Below are positions 28,329 to 36,342 of a stretch of 64,000 nucleotides of DNA, one piece after another. The translations under genes and the position numbers were made by a program. The notes under the pieces are model-generated. The model was not told the origin of the DNA. It saw only the letters and a list, made by a program, of their open reading frames with translations, and searched no databases. Numbering within the stretch: the first letter of the stretch is position 1; every line of letters starts with the position of its first letter. This DNA comes from Candidatus Krumholzibacteriota bacterium. Lineage in GTDB: Bacteria; Krumholzibacteriota; Krumholzibacteriia; JAJRXK01. The stretch spans positions 62,001-126,000 of the forward strand of contig JAJDAC010000002.1 of NCBI GenBank assembly GCA_029262065.1, read 5' to 3'.

Positions 28329-28973
28329 ATGATGATATCTGCCGCTTTGCCAATGCCGTCGGTACCTGAGGATCCGCGCATGCCCTCGCCTCGTCGCGAA
28401 ATGGATGACGAACCCACGGCTGTGCTCCTGGATGGGGCACAGCGAGGGGACCAGCGCTCCATGGAAGTGCTTCTGCAAAGGTACGCTCCTCGACTGCGCC
28501 GCTGGGCCTCGGGGCGACTGCCGCTTCGCGCCCGCGATGCGGAAGACACCGACGACCTGGTGCAGGAGGCGCTGATCCAATCGATCGGTCGCCTGGGCAA
28601 CCTGCGCAAACAGGAGGCGTTTCTGGGCTACCTCCGCACCGCGGTCATGAACCGAATTCGCAACCACGTACGCCACGCCGAAGTCCGTGAGCGGGGAAAC
28701 GACCACGTTCCCACACCGTCGGCCGAGGCATCGCCACTGGAGCGACTGATCGGCAACGACGCGCTGGATCGCTACGAAGCAGCGCTGGCCGCCATGACCG
28801 ACGCCGACCGGTCGCTCATCATGGCTCACGTGGAACTGGACCTATCCATGGCGGAACTGGCCGACCTGACCGGTCGCCCCACGGCCAACGCGGCCCGCAT
28901 GGCGCTGCAGCGCGCTTTGGTGCGTCTGGCCAAGGCCATGGGCGAAACGACAGGGAGGGATGCCAATGAGTAA
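28329..28973 (+). CDS. Sigma-70-family (ECF-like) RNA polymerase sigma factor
   Basis: 214 residues. Region 2 (about 30-110) shows L-L-Q-R-Y-A-P-R-L-R-R-W followed by D-A-E-D-T-D-D-L-V-Q-E-A-L-I-Q-S and the promoter-contact helix F-L-G-Y-L-R-T-A-V-M-N-R-I-R-N. Region 4 (about 145-200) shows M-T-D-A-D-R-S-L-I and M-A-E-L-A-D-L-T-G-R-P-T-A-N-A-A-R-M-A-L-Q-R-A-L. No anti-sigma gene is adjacent. Instead the stop overlaps a Ser/Thr kinase gene by 8 nt, as in sigma factors controlled by a kinase. ATG 28329 has GGAG 8 nt upstream; in-frame ATGs at 28380 and 28401 are alternatives. Confidence 0.85.
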   Translation: MMISAALPMPSVPEDPRMPSPRREMDDEPTAVLLDGAQRGDQRSMEVLLQRYAPRLRRWASGRLPLRARDAEDTDDLVQEALIQSIGRLGNLRKQEAFLGYLRTAVMNRIRNHVRHAEVRERGNDHVPTPSAEASPLERLIGNDALDRYEAALAAMTDADRSLIMAHVELDLSMAELADLTGRPTANAARMALQRALVRLAKAMGETTGRDANE

Positions 28974-30750
28974 GAGGGAACCCACCCAGAAACATCTGGA
29001 AGAACTGGCCCATCGCCTGACCGGAAACGAATCGGTCGACTGGCAACAAGAGGTATCCAGCTCGCAGGACCGGGCTGAAGAACAGTGGGTGCGCAACCTC
29101 GAGCTGGTGGAACGAGTTCGCGATGCCGCGCGCACGGAATGGGAAGAGCTGCAACCGCAGGCCGACGCCACCCAGTTCCTGGATATGACCCGAAACCACC
29201 CCTCGGCCGCGCCATCGACGGGGGCATCCACGCTGACACCGAACTCAACCCCCACGCTCCAGACCTGGGGTCATCTGAATCTGTTGGAGACTCTGGGCGA
29301 GGGCGGCTTCGGCGAAGTATACCGGGCCTGGGACACCCGCCTGAATCGGCCGGTCGCCCTGAAACTCTTGCGCGGTAGCGCCGAAGGCGACGATGCCAAG
29401 GATGCGATCTTGGCCGAGGCACGATTGTTGGCGCGGGTCGAACACCCCAATGTGGCCCGCGTATACGGCGTGGAGTGCCACAACGATCGCGTGGGCATCT
29501 GGATGGAACTGGTGGAGGGCACCGATCTTCGCAGCCTGATCAACGAGAGCGGTCCCATGGACCCCGCCGACGTGGCCACGATTGGCGTTCAGATCGCCAG
29601 CGCCCTGAACGCGGTGCACGCCGCCGGCGTGATTCATCGCGACGTGAAGCCACAGAACATCGTGCGCACGCCCGAGGGTCGCGCGGTACTCATGGATCTG
29701 GGAGCAGCCCAGTGGCGGCGAACCACCGAATCCGACGCGCCCGCGTTGTCCGGAACACCGCGTTACATGGCGCCCGAGCAACTGCTTTCGCAAGAGCCCG
29801 CCGGTCCGCGCACCGACGTGTACGGGTTGGGTGTTACCCTGTTCTATGCGCTGACCGGCGACCTGCCGGTATCGGGAACACTGCGGGAAATCTGCGCGGC
29901 CCACGCCAACCAACGACGTGCATCGCTCACGGAACTGCGGCCCGAGTTGGCCCAGGGAGCGGCCGCGTCGTTGGTGGACATCGTGGATTGGGCGATCCAT
30001 GTCCAACCCACCGAGCGTATCGCCACGGCCGAAGCCCTGCAGCAATCGTTGGCCGAGTGGCAGCGGAAGACAACCCCGGCCGCGCGCGTTGGCCGCGGCT
30101 GGATGGCCGCGGCGCTGCTGGCCACGGCCGCCGTGATCGCACTGCTGATCCTGAAGCCCGACGTTTCCAACAATGGGCTGCTTTCGGGTCAGGTGCAGAT
30201 GAGCAGTCTGCGGGAAGGTCGCTGGGTACCGTTGGCCCCCAACGAGGCGATTACCTCGACCGACGACGTTCAACTTTCATTGCAGCTCACCCGCAAGGCA
30301 CACGTATACGTGATCAATCGCGACGCGCGCGGTAGCGCGGTGGTGCTGTTCCCCATGGCGGGTGGCGGCCTGAAGAATCCTCTGGCGCCGGGCCGATCAC
30401 ACGTTCTACCGGGTCTCGTGGAAGGTAGTCGCAAGGCCTGGACCTTCAGCGCGACAAAGGGTCGCGAAGACTTCCTGGTAATCGCCAGTGCCGAACCGCT
30501 GAACGAATTCGAAGAGCAACTCAATCAGTACGCCACGGTCGACGTTGGCGGAGGGTTGAGTGTCCGTCCGATGGATGGCGCCCTCTGGAACACGGCATTG
30601 CTCCAGGATCTGCGAGGAGTCACGGGGCTGGTGGACGCGCAGGAGATGGATCCCGAAACAGATCTGTTCTCCCTGGCCCTGCAGTTGGCCGAAGAAGAAA
30701 ACCACGGACTGTGGACGCAGGTAGTGCAACTGCAGAATTCAGGACAATAG
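28966..30750 (+). CDS. Membrane Ser/Thr protein kinase with extracytoplasmic DUF4384-like domain
   Basis: 594 residues. Residues 1-100 are a hydrophilic helical region. The PknB-type kinase domain spans about 103-365: G111-E-G-G-F-G-E-V glycine loop, K133 (V-A-L-K), H224-R-D-V-K-P-Q-N, D244-L-G in place of DFG, and A-P-E-Q-L. All catalytic residues are present. One membrane helix lies near 380-397. The outer part (~400-594) resembles DUF4384: it runs L-Q-L-T-R-K-A-H-V-Y-V-I-N-R-D, then V-V-L-F-P, then N-P-L-A-P-G-R-S-H-V-L-P. ATG 28966 is set by GGAGG about 6 nt upstream and overlaps the sigma stop by 8 nt. The kinase probably phosphorylates the linked sigma factor. Confidence 0.88.
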   Translation: MSKREPTQKHLEELAHRLTGNESVDWQQEVSSSQDRAEEQWVRNLELVERVRDAARTEWEELQPQADATQFLDMTRNHPSAAPSTGASTLTPNSTPTLQTWGHLNLLETLGEGGFGEVYRAWDTRLNRPVALKLLRGSAEGDDAKDAILAEARLLARVEHPNVARVYGVECHNDRVGIWMELVEGTDLRSLINESGPMDPADVATIGVQIASALNAVHAAGVIHRDVKPQNIVRTPEGRAVLMDLGAAQWRRTTESDAPALSGTPRYMAPEQLLSQEPAGPRTDVYGLGVTLFYALTGDLPVSGTLREICAAHANQRRASLTELRPELAQGAAASLVDIVDWAIHVQPTERIATAEALQQSLAEWQRKTTPAARVGRGWMAAALLATAAVIALLILKPDVSNNGLLSGQVQMSSLREGRWVPLAPNEAITSTDDVQLSLQLTRKAHVYVINRDARGSAVVLFPMAGGGLKNPLAPGRSHVLPGLVEGSRKAWTFSATKGREDFLVIASAEPLNEFEEQLNQYATVDVGGGLSVRPMDGALWNTALLQDLRGVTGLVDAQEMDPETDLFSLALQLAEEENHGLWTQVVQLQNSGQ

Positions 30751-30783
30751 CCCAAGGAGGACGAAGGAATCAGGGCGGTATTG

Positions 30784-33726
30784 ATGATGGCCTTCATCGC
30801 GATGGCAGTCGCACAGCCGGCCGGGGCCGAGCAGCCGCTCGAGTTCAACAGTATCCGTACGCTTTGGGACGAGGGAAAAAACGAAGCGGCTGAAACAGCC
30901 ATCAACGAGATGTTCGAGATGTATCCAGACCTGCAAAACAACACGCACCCGCAGTCAGCCGAAGCCTGGCATCTGCATGCGTATATCCGGTACAGCCTGG
31001 ATGACCTGGCCACCGCCATCGCCTCGTTGCGAAAGGCCCGTGCCGCCGCCCAGGCGTTCCCGGGTGGCGAACCGCTTTCGGGTATCGAATACGAGTTGGG
31101 ATTCCTTCTGCTGTTCGAGGCCCGCGACGCCGCGGCCGCCATCGAACCGTATACGGCCGCGCTGGAATCCCTACAAGGAGAAGGCAACGACCCTCAAACC
31201 CACGCGACATGGCAATCGGAACTGGCCGAGGCCTATCGCGTGACCGGCAACTACGAGCAGTCTGAGTACCATCTGGAAGCAGCGCTGGCGTCATCTACCG
31301 ATAGCGGAGGTGAGTCGTTCGTCCATGCCGTGCTGCTGAACAACCTGGGCGCGTTGTACTGGGACCAGGGTCGACTGGCCGAGGCCGAACGCAAGTACCG
31401 CGACGCACTGGCGCTGAGTGAACGTCTGCTGGAGCTGAGCCGCGAGGACGAGGACGCCGTGCAGAATCTTTCGCGCCGCCTTACCACGGCCCACCAGAAC
31501 CTGGGCGTCATTCTGTATCACCAGCAGCGCCCAAGACTGGCGCGCATCGAATTGGAGCGGGCCAAAGAACTGGCCGACCTCCACCTGGACGCCGTCGACC
31601 CCCTTCGTATCTACAGCTACGGCGCACTGGCCAAGGTGTTGAGCGAACTATCCGAACTGGAACGGGCCGAAGAACTGTGGAACGAAGCCCTGACCAACGC
31701 CACGGCCGACAACCAGGAGACGTTCGTACAACGTGCGGAGATACTCCACGAGCGCGCCTTGGCCCGAATTGAACACGACGAGCACGACCTGGCCGCACAG
31801 GACCTGCGCGAAGCAATTCGCGTCTGGGAATCGGCGTTGGGCACCGATCACCCCATGGTCGGACGTTTACAATCGACCCTGGCGCGAGCATCGGTTCCCA
31901 AGGGAGATGCGCAGCAGCTCGTGCAACTGTGCGACCAGGCGGTCCTACGCCTGCAGGACAACCGGTTTGCTCCCGATGCCCTGGCCGAGGCATTGGCCCT
32001 GCGCGGACAGGCCCGCGATGAACTTGGCCAACGAGACGCCGCCATTGCAGACACCGAACGCGCGTTGCGCCTGGTGGAACAGTTACGCGGTGAGCGCGGA
32101 ACCAGCGATGCCACGCGCCTGGCCTTCATGCGTCGCTTCGCGTCCCGAGCCGAAGCACTGGTGGGTTGGTTGGTCGACCGCAACCAGGCGGGTCGGGCGG
32201 TAGCCACCGCCGAAAGACTCCGCGCACGATTGCTTCAAGACGAACTGCGCGCCGACCGGGTCGATCTGCGCCGCGGTATCGATCCCGAAATCCTGCGACC
32301 ACTCGAGCGCCGCGAGAAGGACGCTCGCGCCAAAATCGCCGATCGTCAACGTGAGCTACGCCAAACGCGGGTGGCCCACGATAGCGAGTCTGGCCAAGTG
32401 GCCATGGCCGCCTTGAAAGACGCGCTGCTGGAACTCGAGAGAGTCGAAGACGAGCTGCGCCTGCAGAGTCCGGTGTGGAGCAAGGCGCTGCGCGGGCAGT
32501 CCGACGATGATATCGTGGAACGCGTACAGCGTTCGCTGGGCGATGCCGCCGCTCTGTACTACTTCCTGGGCCGACATCGCTCGTTGGTGTTCTACGTGCC
32601 GCCCGCCCCCGCGGCCGTGGAGGCCTTCACGCTGGCCGCCGCCACCAACGCATTGCCCGCACTGGTAGCCGACGAATCGCAGATGGCCCGGACCATGGAG
32701 AATCCGAATCTTGAAAGTCTGACGCGCGGCGTCACCGGCATGCGCCCGGCCGGCGAGGGAGCTCGCCTCGATAGCGTGTCCGGCGCGCTCGCGCGTCAAC
32801 TGTACGAGGTGTTTGGCTGGCTCATGCCCGCCGAGCTCTGGACGAAACTCCAACAGCACCCGCAGGTCGTGGTCGTACCCGATGGTCCGCTGCACGCCAT
32901 GCCGTTTGAAGCATTGGTCACGAAGGCTCCCGCCAACGGCGACGTTCAGTACTGGCTCGACGCTGGCCCCACCTTACGCTACGCGCATAGCTTCGGCGTG
33001 TGGCAGGCATTGCGCGAACGTCCTTCGCGTCGCAAAGCCGAGGTTTCGGTGGTTTCGATCAGCAACCCGGCGTTCGACACCGACGACGACGCATCACCAT
33101 TCGGTCGCGCCCTGAAGCCGCTCCCCGGCACGGCGGTCGAAAGCGCGGCCGTCACCGCGGCGTTCGGAGCCGATGCGGTAGTGGTGCTGTCGGGGGCCGC
33201 CGCCACCGAACGGGCCAGCTGCGAATTGTTGCCGCGGGCGAAATACGTGCACCTGGCCACGCACGGCGTGATCGATCGTGACTCCGGCGGCCGCCTGTCG
33301 GCGTTGGCCTTCGCTCCTTCGGGCTCCGATACAGACCTGGGCGACGACGGCATGCTGCAACTATTCGAGATCTACGACCTGGACCTGGCCTGCGACCTGG
33401 CCGTGCTTTCGGCCTGCGAAACGAAGGCCGGCACCAACCTGGAAGGCGAGGGCGTGTACGCCATCTCACGCGGCTTCCACGTGGCCGGCTCCCGCCAGAC
33501 CGTGGCCAGCCTGTGGGCCGTGAATGACGATTCCACGGCCGAGCTCATGGGAAACCTGTTCCGCGGGCTCGCGTCCAACGAAGACCCGAACGAATCCCGG
33601 TCCGTGGCCGAGTTGCTGCGAACCGCCAAACAATCCATTCGCCAACAGAAGAAATGGTCCCACCCCGCCTACTGGGCTCCCTTCGTCCTGAGTGGGTCCG
33701 ACCAGCTCCCCGCAACCAAGGATTGA
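30784..33726 (+). CDS. TPR-repeat CHAT-domain (caspase-like) protein, probably exported
   Basis: About 980 residues. The N-terminus is a short hydrophobic stretch ending P-A-G-A-E, a likely signal peptide. Residues ~20-450 are TPR-like helices and ~450-600 a coiled-coil-rich linker. Residues ~640-975 form a CHAT protease domain, with H827 in L-A-T-H-G-V and C878 in L-S-A-C-E-T as the catalytic dyad. S-R-G-F-H-V-A-G-S and S-L-W-A-V-N-D are further hallmarks. The ATG at 30784 is conventional. However, the only good ribosome site (AAGGAGG at 30754) is 8 nt before an in-frame ATC at 30769. The frame is the same as the kinase's, separated by a TAG. The stop is 4 nt before the next gene. Confidence 0.9.
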   Translation: MMAFIAMAVAQPAGAEQPLEFNSIRTLWDEGKNEAAETAINEMFEMYPDLQNNTHPQSAEAWHLHAYIRYSLDDLATAIASLRKARAAAQAFPGGEPLSGIEYELGFLLLFEARDAAAAIEPYTAALESLQGEGNDPQTHATWQSELAEAYRVTGNYEQSEYHLEAALASSTDSGGESFVHAVLLNNLGALYWDQGRLAEAERKYRDALALSERLLELSREDEDAVQNLSRRLTTAHQNLGVILYHQQRPRLARIELERAKELADLHLDAVDPLRIYSYGALAKVLSELSELERAEELWNEALTNATADNQETFVQRAEILHERALARIEHDEHDLAAQDLREAIRVWESALGTDHPMVGRLQSTLARASVPKGDAQQLVQLCDQAVLRLQDNRFAPDALAEALALRGQARDELGQRDAAIADTERALRLVEQLRGERGTSDATRLAFMRRFASRAEALVGWLVDRNQAGRAVATAERLRARLLQDELRADRVDLRRGIDPEILRPLERREKDARAKIADRQRELRQTRVAHDSESGQVAMAALKDALLELERVEDELRLQSPVWSKALRGQSDDDIVERVQRSLGDAAALYYFLGRHRSLVFYVPPAPAAVEAFTLAAATNALPALVADESQMARTMENPNLESLTRGVTGMRPAGEGARLDSVSGALARQLYEVFGWLMPAELWTKLQQHPQVVVVPDGPLHAMPFEALVTKAPANGDVQYWLDAGPTLRYAHSFGVWQALRERPSRRKAEVSVVSISNPAFDTDDDASPFGRALKPLPGTAVESAAVTAAFGADAVVVLSGAAATERASCELLPRAKYVHLATHGVIDRDSGGRLSALAFAPSGSDTDLGDDGMLQLFEIYDLDLACDLAVLSACETKAGTNLEGEGVYAISRGFHVAGSRQTVASLWAVNDDSTAELMGNLFRGLASNEDPNESRSVAELLRTAKQSIRQQKKWSHPAYWAPFVLSGSDQLPATKD

Positions 33727-33730
33727 TTCC

Positions 33731-34762
33731 ATGCTGACTCGACTGCTTCTTTGCATTGCCATCGCCTCCACCGCCCTGATGACCGTGGCGCCTTCGCCCA
33801 CCAACGCGGCGCGGGCAAAGATCGGTGGCGGCGGGCCCTACGATCGGGCCACGTTCCATTTCAGCGAGTGGTGCTTCAACGAGTGGCCGCAAGCCAACTG
33901 CGGAACCGGGGTCGAGACGTTCGTAGCTGACGGCGCCGACGCGGTGGTTCGATTCACCGTACGCAATTACTGGCAGGGTTCCCCCATGGGCTTCGTCCTG
34001 GATCGCTTCGCGGTGGTTACCAAAGCGGCCTACGACGCGAATCTCATCGATGGCTCCGCGGCAGAGTCGAACTGCACATTGTTGGTACCTACCGTCAACC
34101 TCCTGGACCTCGCATCGATCGCGCCCGCCGACGTGGTGTATTCCACCGATTTCGACACGAGCCTGGGAGCCGAGTGGACGGTGGACGGAACGCAGGTTTC
34201 CTGGACTCCGTCGGGGGCACCGGACGATCCGTTCAACACTGGAAGCGGCAGCACCACCGGGGCAATGCTGATCGGCACCGGTAGCGGGCCCGAGTTCTTG
34301 ACGGTGGAAATCGTCGTGGCCGGCCTGACATCGGGTGTGGAGTACGCGCTGTCGCACTGGACCGCCTCGGCCCCTCGTGAGTTCTTCACCGAACCCGACA
34401 ACAACTGCAACGGCGGGCTGGCCGACGACGAATGGGAAGTCGAGATCTTCGGAGCCGACGCAACGGACGCTCCTTCGGTGAACGCGGCGGCTCGCTTGAA
34501 CCAGAACTTTCCCAACCCGTTCAATCCGCGCACGAGCATCCCGTTCTTTCTGAACCAGCCGGGCAACGTAACGCTGACCGTGTTCGATGCCCGTGGTCGC
34601 GAGGTGCGTACATTGGTGGATTCGTCGCTGGACGTAGGCTCACACGAACGATTCTGGGACGGTCGTGACGCAGAGAACCGCAATGCGCCCGCGGGGCTGT
34701 ACTACTACCGACTGACCACCGCAGAAGGATCGCTGACAAAACCAATGATACTTTTAAAGTAG
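33731..34762 (+). CDS. Exported protein with FlgD-Ig-like C-terminal domain, paralogue 1
   Basis: 343 residues. The signal peptide M-L-T-R-L-L-L-C-I-A...N-A-A precedes a conserved block beginning K-I-G-G-G-G-P-Y-D-R, with F-V-A-D-G and A-V-V-R-F-T-V-R-N. This block is shared with the next gene. The last ~85 residues (N-F-P-N-P-F-N-P-R-T-S-I ... G-L-Y-Y-Y-R-L) are a FlgD-Ig-like domain of the kind that serves as a C-terminal sorting/anchoring signal in FCB-type bacteria. No enzyme motif is seen. It starts 4 nt after the CHAT gene, so it is in the same operon, which suggests it is a substrate, partner or output of that system. Confidence 0.82.
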   Translation: MLTRLLLCIAIASTALMTVAPSPTNAARAKIGGGGPYDRATFHFSEWCFNEWPQANCGTGVETFVADGADAVVRFTVRNYWQGSPMGFVLDRFAVVTKAAYDANLIDGSAAESNCTLLVPTVNLLDLASIAPADVVYSTDFDTSLGAEWTVDGTQVSWTPSGAPDDPFNTGSGSTTGAMLIGTGSGPEFLTVEIVVAGLTSGVEYALSHWTASAPREFFTEPDNNCNGGLADDEWEVEIFGADATDAPSVNAAARLNQNFPNPFNPRTSIPFFLNQPGNVTLTVFDARGREVRTLVDSSLDVGSHERFWDGRDAENRNAPAGLYYYRLTTAEGSLTKPMILLK

Positions 34763-34904
34763 CCGAGCCAGCTCGATCACTGGGAACCTCGAAGCACCGG
34801 CGCAGGCTATTCTTGGTGCGGAGACCAACCGAGCCAGCTCGATCACTGGGAACCTCGAAGCACCACCCGAAGCACCGGCGCAGGCTACTCTTAGACGGAG
34901 ACCA
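34763..34904 (+). repeat. Tandem direct repeat between the two paralogues
   Basis: Copy 1 (34763-34827) begins immediately after the stop codon of paralogue 1. Copy 2 (34829-34904) ends directly before the purine-rich leader of paralogue 2. Both run from CCGAGCCAGCTCGATCACTG to GGAGACCA and are nearly identical. Copy 2 carries a 12-nt insertion that duplicates GAAGCACC. The arrangement fits an intergenic spacer duplicated together with the gene. Confidence 0.85.
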
Positions 34905-34908
34905 AAAA

Positions 34909-36342
34909 ATGAGAAGCTCCCTACTCCTGACCGCAGCCGCCCTACTCCTGGCAAGCTCCACGTACGCCGCCGGCACCCAACAGAAGAAGATCGGCGGCAG
35001 CGGCCCCTATGATCGCCCCACTGTGCACACCGGTACGTGGTGCTACGTCGAGTGGAGTCAGACCGCGGTCACGTGCGCAGCCGAACCCGACACGTTCGTG
35101 GCTGACGGCGATAGCGCGGTTGTACGTTTCACGGTCCGCAACTGGCGGCCGGCGGGCGCTAGTATACCAGCGTTCCAACTGGACAACGTCGCTGTCGTGT
35201 CGAAATCAATCTACGATTCGTACTTGTTGCCCGTGGGACTTCTGGTCGACGAATACGGATGCGAGCTCGATCCCGCCGCACCCATGCTCGACTTCGCGTC
35301 CATCGCGCCGCGCGACCTGCCCTATTTCACCAGCTTCGACGGAGGCTACGGACAGGAATGGTCTGGTGACCTGTCGCAGGTGAGCTGGGAAGACGGGTTG
35401 GATATCAACGACCTGCTTACCTTTGGGCCGATGTTCGATGACCCATTCAATCCCGTGTACGACGCTCAGCAAAATGCTTCGTCGAACACCGGCGCTATCC
35501 GCATCGGTCAGGGCACCGGACCCGAATTCGTCACCATCGATCTGCAACTCACCGACTTGGTGATCGGCGAAGAATACGTAGTGACGTACTGGTCCAGATC
35601 CACCAACGGTGGCAACACCTGCCAAATGGGCCCGCCCTACGACACCTGGGAAGTCGAGATCTTCGGCGAGACGCTCGAGTGCGCCCCCGACCCGCCGCAG
35701 ATCGAGATTCTCGAATTCCGCACACTGGCGTGGAATCCGGTCACGGACGTCTGGCGCTTCCAGGCCCGGGTAACCAACACCGGCCAGGGCGACGCCACCG
35801 GCGTGGGCATGACGCTGACCGACGCCACCGTGTGGATCCCCATCCTGGACAACTTCGGCGAAGTGGGAGCAGTACCGGTGGGTGGCGACGTGTGGACGGG
35901 TTCGTTCGAGGTGGACCTCACGAACTTCCCGCCGCTAGCCGGCGAGCCACTCATGGAATTCCACTTCAACTACCTGGACGACTGCGCCGACCGGGAATCG
36001 CAGGACCTTCTGTACCAGACCCTGGCCGTACCGGCCTACCCGACCGATGCGCCCAGCGTGAAACCGCCCGGGTCGTTGGCCCAGAACGTTCCCAATCCGT
36101 TCAACCCCCGTACCCGAATCGAGTTCACACTCCAGGATGCGGCTACGGTCCGACTGGACGTTTTGGACATTCGGGGACGAGTCGTACGGCGTTTGTTCGA
36201 GGGATCCATGCCGGGCGGAATGCATGCGACCACGTGGGACGGCACGGACGAAGACCATCGAGCGGTCGCGGCCGGCCCGTACTTCTACGCTTTGCAAACG
36301 CCCAGCGGAACGATCACGCGCAAGATGGTGCTACTTAAATAG
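34909..36342 (+). CDS. Exported protein with FlgD-Ig-like C-terminal domain, paralogue 2
   Basis: 477 residues. The signal peptide M-R-S-S-L-L-L-T-A-A-A-L-L...Y-A-A is followed by the same N-terminal block as paralogue 1 (K-I-G-G-S-G-P-Y-D-R, F-V-A-D-G, A-V-V-R-F-T-V-R-N). It has an added ~130-residue domain, I-L-E-F-R-T-L-A-W-N onward, resembling a CARDB/FN3 beta-sandwich. The C-terminus is N-V-P-N-P-F-N-P-R-T-R-I ... R-K-M-V-L-L-K. ATG 34909 follows GGAG at 34897-34900 by 8 nt. Its 3' end overlaps the convergent Nramp-like gene by 12 nt. Confidence 0.82.
   Translation: MRSSLLLTAAALLLASSTYAAGTQQKKIGGSGPYDRPTVHTGTWCYVEWSQTAVTCAAEPDTFVADGDSAVVRFTVRNWRPAGASIPAFQLDNVAVVSKSIYDSYLLPVGLLVDEYGCELDPAAPMLDFASIAPRDLPYFTSFDGGYGQEWSGDLSQVSWEDGLDINDLLTFGPMFDDPFNPVYDAQQNASSNTGAIRIGQGTGPEFVTIDLQLTDLVIGEEYVVTYWSRSTNGGNTCQMGPPYDTWEVEIFGETLECAPDPPQIEILEFRTLAWNPVTDVWRFQARVTNTGQGDATGVGMTLTDATVWIPILDNFGEVGAVPVGGDVWTGSFEVDLTNFPPLAGEPLMEFHFNYLDDCADRESQDLLYQTLAVPAYPTDAPSVKPPGSLAQNVPNPFNPRTRIEFTLQDAATVRLDVLDIRGRVVRRLFEGSMPGGMHATTWDGTDEDHRAVAAGPYFYALQTPSGTITRKMVLLK

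Follow-up and report, generated by a model that had tools for sequence, protein, structure and literature searches.

A recurrent cassette of ECF sigma factor, membrane kinase and predicted exported TPR-CHAT protein in a Krumholzibacteriota bacterium, and its possible place in sigma-factor control

What does a caspase-like protein do when its gene follows those of a sigma factor and a membrane kinase, and its product appears to leave the cytoplasm? The usual picture of CHAT proteins is one of killers inside the cytoplasm or of RNA-guided proteases, and the question is raised by a five-gene cassette at positions 28,329 to 36,342 of a 64,000-nucleotide stretch of DNA from Candidatus Krumholzibacteriota bacterium (assembly GCA_029262065.1, contig JAJDAC010000002.1, positions 62,001 to 126,000; the whole stretch is referred to as the window, and positions are those within it). 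The cassette encodes a sigma-70-type factor of the extracytoplasmic function (ECF) class, a membrane Ser/Thr kinase, a TPR-CHAT protein, and two predicted exported proteins, A and B, with FlgD-type C-terminal tails. The first three genes very probably form a real conserved module, and the CHAT protein is tentatively placed in the control arm of the sigma factor. The initial annotation of the locus had listed five genes in one direction with their order and domains, and this observation is confirmed, all five open reading frames lying on the forward strand in agreement with Pfam and NCBIfam:

28329..28973, + strand: ECF-type sigma-70 factor, 214 amino acids (Pfam Sigma70_r2, 1.2e-9; regions r2 and r4), with DTDDLVQE (D73-E80) in region 2.2, Thr74 and the linker residue Ser135
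28966..30750, + strand: membrane Ser/Thr kinase, 594 amino acids (Pfam Pkinase, 2.3e-49; DUF4384, 4.3e-10)
30755..30784, + strand: ribosome-binding site AAGGAGG and the candidate CHAT starts ATC 30769, TTG 30781 and ATG 30784
30769..33726, + strand: TPR-CHAT caspase-like protein, predicted exported, about 980 amino acids (Pfam CHAT, 4.6e-55, and TPR)
33731..34762, + strand: protein A, 343 amino acids, predicted exported, with a signal peptide, a 'KIGxxGPYDR' domain and a FlgD_ig tail of the type IX secretion system (T9SS) type (FlgD_ig, 4.3e-9)
34763..34908, + strand: intergenic segment of 146 nt between A and B, with internal repeats
34909..36342, + strand: protein B, 477 amino acids, predicted exported, with a signal peptide, a 'KIGxxGPYDR' domain and a FlgD_ig tail (FlgD_ig, 5e-10)

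Conservation of the sigma-kinase-CHAT triad

The genome that holds the window (G000; 5.77 Mb in 59 contigs) contains five sigma factors that form one close family, the next match standing at E 1e-7, and a DUF4384 kinase gene follows all five. The CHAT gene comes directly after the kinase gene in the window and at three other loci (L046, L038, and L035), and three FlgD-tailed genes intervene at the fifth (L052). The triad was also found in relatives at L071, L073, L074, L083, and L097, and the CHAT gene lies upstream in L091 and is convergent in L080; the window and these 11 other cassettes are the 12 compared here. L071 belongs to another genus of the same family, and its order (sigma-kinase-FlgD-FlgD-CHAT) is that of L052 minus one extra FlgD gene, the FlgD proteins of the two loci being orthologous (44% over 920 amino acids and 45% over 466 amino acids). 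An apparent kinase-CHAT fusion in L097 was rejected, the two parts being in different frames. Owing to the five copies in one genome and the recurrence in relatives, the triad is not attributed to chance, and there is little doubt that it represents a real conserved module. The gene order is conserved among relatives, which favours the single functional cassette proposed initially, with the triad as its conserved core.

Beyond the triad, the sigma family is carried by 11 of the 80 genomes surveyed in the phylum (called Ca. Eisenbacteria in this analysis), and the sigma-kinase pair also occurs, as named homologues, in records of Acidobacteria, Lysobacterales, and Gemmatimonadota. An adjoining kinase gene is present for nearly all sigma homologues with enough sequence. 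At three acidobacterial loci (L090, L092, and L104), two genes follow the pair, one for a small product and one for a 'VVGTGI' protein; by eye, the latter resembles S-adenosylmethionine (SAM)-dependent methylases, and the two together recall a peptide-modifying, borosin-like pair. Separately, an ECF sigma gene of G000 at L049 stands with the genes of a 220-amino-acid protein with a single transmembrane helix and of a radical SAM protein.

Among 40 aligned sigma sequences, the acidic motif of region 2.2 is kept, with D76 in all 40 and D or E at position 73 in 39; Thr74 is likewise invariant, and the linker residue Ser135 occurs in 34. In sigma factors of group ECF43, this motif is missing and phosphorylation acts as the switch (PMC8999054, PMC13147305). 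The mechanism first suggested for the cassette was that of the ECF43 pair EcfP/PknT, and it is weakened because the present sigma factor retains the DxxDxxQE motif whose loss defines ECF43. Phosphorylation at Thr74 or Ser135 may still occur, since the threonine inside the acidic motif is invariant, and provides a testable lead. The kinase keeps the G-loop, the VALK lysine, and HRDVK, so the catalytic residues are intact as first described, with DLG in place of DFG. Its architecture comprises an N-terminal segment conserved in sigma-linked kinases, the kinase domain, one transmembrane helix (residues ~375-395), and an outer DUF4384 region (residues ~412-590), which also agrees with the initial description.

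Adjacency of CHAT and sigma genes extends over the genome. Profile searches of G000 returned 32 CHAT proteins, 76 Pkinase proteins, and 50 sigma-70-type factors, and a Sigma70_r2 gene lies within 6 kb of 16 of the 32 CHAT genes (random placement: mean 3.4, maximum 11 in 20,000 runs). In five relatives, 20 of 31 CHAT genes are near a sigma gene (random mean 2.1, maximum 10 in 5,000 runs), a figure somewhat inflated because the set includes genomes picked for carrying the sigma family. At least three types of CHAT-sigma locus are found in G000. The first, at five loci, combines the DUF4384 kinase with an exported CHAT protein. The second (L040, L041, and L021) has an ECF-like sigma factor, a zf-HC2 anti-sigma-like protein (with a single transmembrane helix in L040 and L041), an exported or lipid-anchored CHAT protein, and often a FlgD-tailed protein. 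The third (L023, L024, and L026-L030) has an ECF sigma factor and a cytoplasmic CHAT protein of about 920 amino acids; the divergent ECF-type sigma gene precedes the CHAT gene, usually with one gene for about 150-250 amino acids between them, and the CHAT gene is often followed or faced by a lipoprotein-like gene for about 400 amino acids. Because CHAT stays constant while the gatekeeper changes between kinase and zf-HC2 protein, the gene order argues that CHAT would belong to the sigma control arm. Furthermore, as about half of the CHAT genes of G000 adjoin a sigma factor, the adjacency suggests that CHAT proteases help to control gene expression and do not only kill cells.

The CHAT protein and its relation to known systems

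The CHAT domain of the window protein scores 187.5 bits against PF12770 (cut-off 24), and the His827/Cys878 dyad reported initially (numbering counted from ATG 30784) is correctly placed and invariant across 18 aligned CHAT sequences. The dyad is likewise intact in the CHAT proteins of all cassettes found. The N-terminus of the window protein is less straightforward, as a normal signal peptide results from none of the ATG codons. The best-placed start is ATC 30769, a rare codon about 8 nt after AAGGAGG, which gives a standard signal peptide, MRAVLMMAFIAMAVAQPAGA; a start at ATG 30784 gives a short signal peptide without a basic residue. Instead of an ATC start, there may be a sequencing error, or the short peptide from 30784 may be used. 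The CHAT proteins of the other 11 cassettes all have a signal-peptide-like N-terminus, judged by eye and hydropathy, with no dedicated predictor, and approximately 22 of the 32 CHAT proteins of G000 look exported or lipid-anchored. The signal peptide claimed in the initial annotation is thus borne out as a predicted export signal in all cassettes found, and the exact start of the window protein stays uncertain.

The AlphaFold2 model of the CHAT protein (pLDDT 82, pTM 0.81) has DdvA, named a transmembrane anti-sigma factor, as its top fold match in the PDB (E 4e-13), followed by Csx29/Craspase and separase. Whole-chain TM-scores are low (DdvA 0.25 and Csx29 0.42), as is expected from the flexibility of the solenoid. 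A profile of the CHAT domain alone, run against PDB sequences, gave DdvA as the sole significant match (8rot, E 2.5e-6), in which both dyad residues are aligned. The protein is predicted, from its sequence, to be a caspase-like protease. It shares with Csx29/Craspase and separase a TPR-type solenoid and a CHAT/caspase-like fold with a His-Cys dyad. Those two are cytoplasmic proteases, RNA-guided or acting in the cell cycle, and are not known to have signal peptides or ECF-kinase neighbours.

The closest likeness in regulatory context is to DdvS/DdvA of Myxococcus xanthus (PDB 8rot and 8rw5), an ECF sigma factor under a membrane protein with a C-terminal CHAT domain, in which DdvS becomes active once DdvA is inactivated (PMC4374960). 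Judging by the title of the PDB entry and its location at the C-terminus, the CHAT domain of DdvA would lie outside the membrane. However, DdvA is one polypeptide and is described as an anti-sigma factor, whereas the membrane-bound gate in the present cassette is a kinase, and CHAT belongs to another chain, the exported TPR-CHAT protein. The ECF43-kinase pairs EcfP/PknT and EcfK/PknS likewise consist of an ECF sigma factor followed by a Hanks-type kinase with one transmembrane helix, a pre-kinase segment, and an outer domain, and such an adjoining kinase gene is present in the window. The ECF43 factors differ in lacking the acidic DxxDxxQE/DAED motif; moreover, the outer domain of PknS consists of TPRs, in place of which the window kinase has DUF4384 and the cassette has an added CHAT gene. 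Group ECF54, matched here by gene context only, also has CHAT near an ECF sigma factor, and a subtilase lies beside the G000 cassettes L038 and L035 as well. Proteolytic control of ECF54 has been proposed on account of the CHAT and subtilase genes in its neighbourhood, and no kinase is described for this group in the same review (PMC8999054). Owing to the DdvA and ECF54 precedents, the initial claim of a wholly new arrangement, a CHAT enzyme outside the cytoplasm tied to a kinase-sigma switch, is too strong: a CHAT domain that is outside the cytoplasm and linked to a sigma factor has precedent in DdvA, and about two thirds of the CHAT proteins of G000 look exported. The kinase version nevertheless appears to be undescribed, since the triad was not found in the literature searched, from which subscription papers were mostly absent.

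Roles proposed for the CHAT protein and its neighbours

The link between CHAT and the kinase lies in the outer region of the latter. A hidden Markov model of this region, built from the five kinases of G000, was used to sort homologous kinases. The outer DUF4384 region is present in every kinase linked to CHAT, and a CHAT gene is nearby for 12 of 17 kinases with the region vs none of 18 without it (Fisher 7e-6), a comparison partly confounded by phylogeny, as kinases without the region are mostly acidobacterial and some contigs are short. Three further kinases with the region lie at a contig edge. Even inside single genomes (G003 and G004), kinases that have no outer region likewise have no CHAT gene nearby. 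Distance matrices of CHAT and kinase are correlated (rho 0.52, Mantel p 0.003); the kinase-sigma correlation is stronger (0.67), and that of CHAT and sigma is weak (0.21, p 0.09).

Our tentative preference is for a cassette that comprises an ECF sigma switch, a membrane Ser/Thr kinase as its gate, and an exported TPR-CHAT protein in the control arm, with the FlgD-tailed proteins as a variable add-on. The TPR-CHAT protein would act outside the inner membrane together with the outer DUF4384 region of the kinase; in response to an envelope signal, it would bind or cleave this region and thereby set the output of the kinase, which would change the activity of the sigma factor, probably at Thr74 or Ser135. 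The sigma factor would then drive its own operon and surface-protein genes, and A and B may contribute to the signal as scaffolds or by binding a ligand, or may be targets. Several points weigh against this proposal. Protease activity, phosphorylation, and the direction of signalling are all predictions. Five loci with the outer region have no nearby CHAT gene. CHAT is a separate protein in all cassettes found, never fused to the kinase, and their contact is for this reason only assumed. Finally, the 'KIGxxGPYDR' domain is exclusive to loci adjacent to CHAT genes, which fits a substrate role equally well.

That substrate role is the basis of the initial annotation, in which the kinase-sigma switch acts upstream and the exported CHAT protein is an effector whose cleavage of the FlgD-tailed proteins would bring about their maturation, release, or activation. 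Proteins A and B directly follow CHAT and are paralogous (43% identity over 243 amino acids, plus 51% in the tail). Their shared domain of about 230 amino acids recurs in the product of the gene that follows CHAT in L046 and, as a weak match, in that of a gene divergent to CHAT in L040; apart from these four proteins at three loci, G000 gives one marginal match, and the domain is absent from the other genomes among the 80 scanned in the phylum. The CHAT proteins of these three loci form one subclade together with that of L073, and the restriction of the domain to loci beside this subclade favours a co-specificity of CHAT and its 'KIGxxGPYDR' partner, as predicted from sequence distribution. 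Moreover, co-directional FlgD-tailed neighbours are enriched beside exported CHAT genes (7/23 vs 26/330 for other genes, p 0.003). The tails themselves are nevertheless generic, with at least 150 FlgD_ig-tailed proteins in G000 (300 first-look candidates, 150 scored). A FlgD-tailed neighbour occurs in only 5 of the 12 cassettes, and beyond the tail most of these are unrelated: the partner may carry the 'KIGxxGPYDR' domain, FG-GAP/ASPIC, GSDH, or CARDB, be replaced by a lipoprotein and a subtilase, or not be seen at all, and the triad is kept without FlgD-tailed partners in L083, L091, and L097. With the tails a genome-wide export feature, the partners variable, and CHAT tracking the outer region of the kinase, cleavage of the two co-encoded paralogues is the weakest point of the initial interpretation, which as a whole is partly supported, and is considered somewhat unlikely; the sequence data agree no less well with a CHAT protein in a sigma control module than with a CHAT effector.

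Two further explanations concern the context of the cassette. The ECF switch might respond when a phage, predator, or competitor attacks the envelope, with CHAT causing death or damage as other TPR-CHAT effectors do. Csx29/Craspase, the next fold match, is a TPR-CHAT protein; an antiphage island is under the control of DdvS, the sigma factor paired with DdvA (PMC12288465), and EcfK-PknS has a role in resisting predation by amoebae (PMC13147305); the families are also multi-copy and patchy. However, PADLOC matched only the kinase, with generic kinase models, and none of CHAT, A, B, or the sigma factor; an exported protease is poorly suited to cytoplasmic suicide, and neither a gasdermin-like nor a nuclease partner was observed. 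Such a defence role is therefore judged improbable. Co-location of these genes without functional coupling could be expected in a genome so rich in kinases, CHAT proteins, FlgD tails, and sigma factors, and the sigma family is sparse in the phylum; yet the fivefold recurrence, the order conserved across genera and families, and the excess of CHAT-sigma adjacency over both random placements strongly disfavour it, and it has very little probability.

For the FlgD-tailed proteins, the tail scores of A and B against TIGR04183 are 30.4 and 22.1 bits (cut-off 23), and an SprA_N homologue is found in G000 on C32 (6.7e-14, above cut-off). The homologue suggests a T9SS-like export route for the FlgD tails. 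Their FlgD_ig/Por_Secre-like form resembles that of T9SS type A cargo, from which B differs in its tail, just below the cut-off; the route is a prediction. The model of the A/B domain is weak (pLDDT 60), and its fold matches suggest only a beta-sandwich.

The sigma and kinase genes overlap by 8 nt, and gaps of 4 nt and 146 nt separate CHAT from A and A from B. The longer gap holds an exact 36-nt repeat (34763-34798 and 34829-34864) and a 25-nt near-repeat; no further copy of the 36-nt sequence was found in the window or the fetched loci. A structured RNA or riboswitch was rejected for this gap, where Rfam gave no match and the fold signal was z=0.39. Since the gap contains this duplicated sequence without an RNA-fold signal, gene B may be transcribed separately from the rest of the cassette. 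No convincing ECF promoter common to the five sigma paralogues emerged from a motif search of their upstream regions, and a sigma-70 promoter scan gave matches near noise level. Upstream of the window cassette lies a polyphosphate kinase gene (Pfam), which was not seen next to other cassette copies, and a convergent transporter-like gene lies downstream.

Implications for CHAT proteases and DUF4384

A broader and more speculative proposal, unlikely in its full extent, is that regulation of ECF sigma factors is a general function of CHAT proteases. At each ECF-CHAT locus of this phylum, CHAT would switch the gatekeeper of the sigma factor, outside the cytoplasm at kinase and anti-sigma loci and within it at others; in the present cassette, an exported caspase-like protease would switch a receptor kinase via its DUF4384 outer region. 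DUF4384 has been reported in cyanobacterial orthocaspases (PMC7475262). If CHAT proteins do set sigma activity, a widespread layer of protease-gated signalling would exist outside the cytoplasm, and DUF4384 would gain a candidate role as a receptor region acted on by a caspase-like partner. The exchange of kinase and anti-sigma protein around a constant CHAT protein makes the control-arm proposal directly testable.

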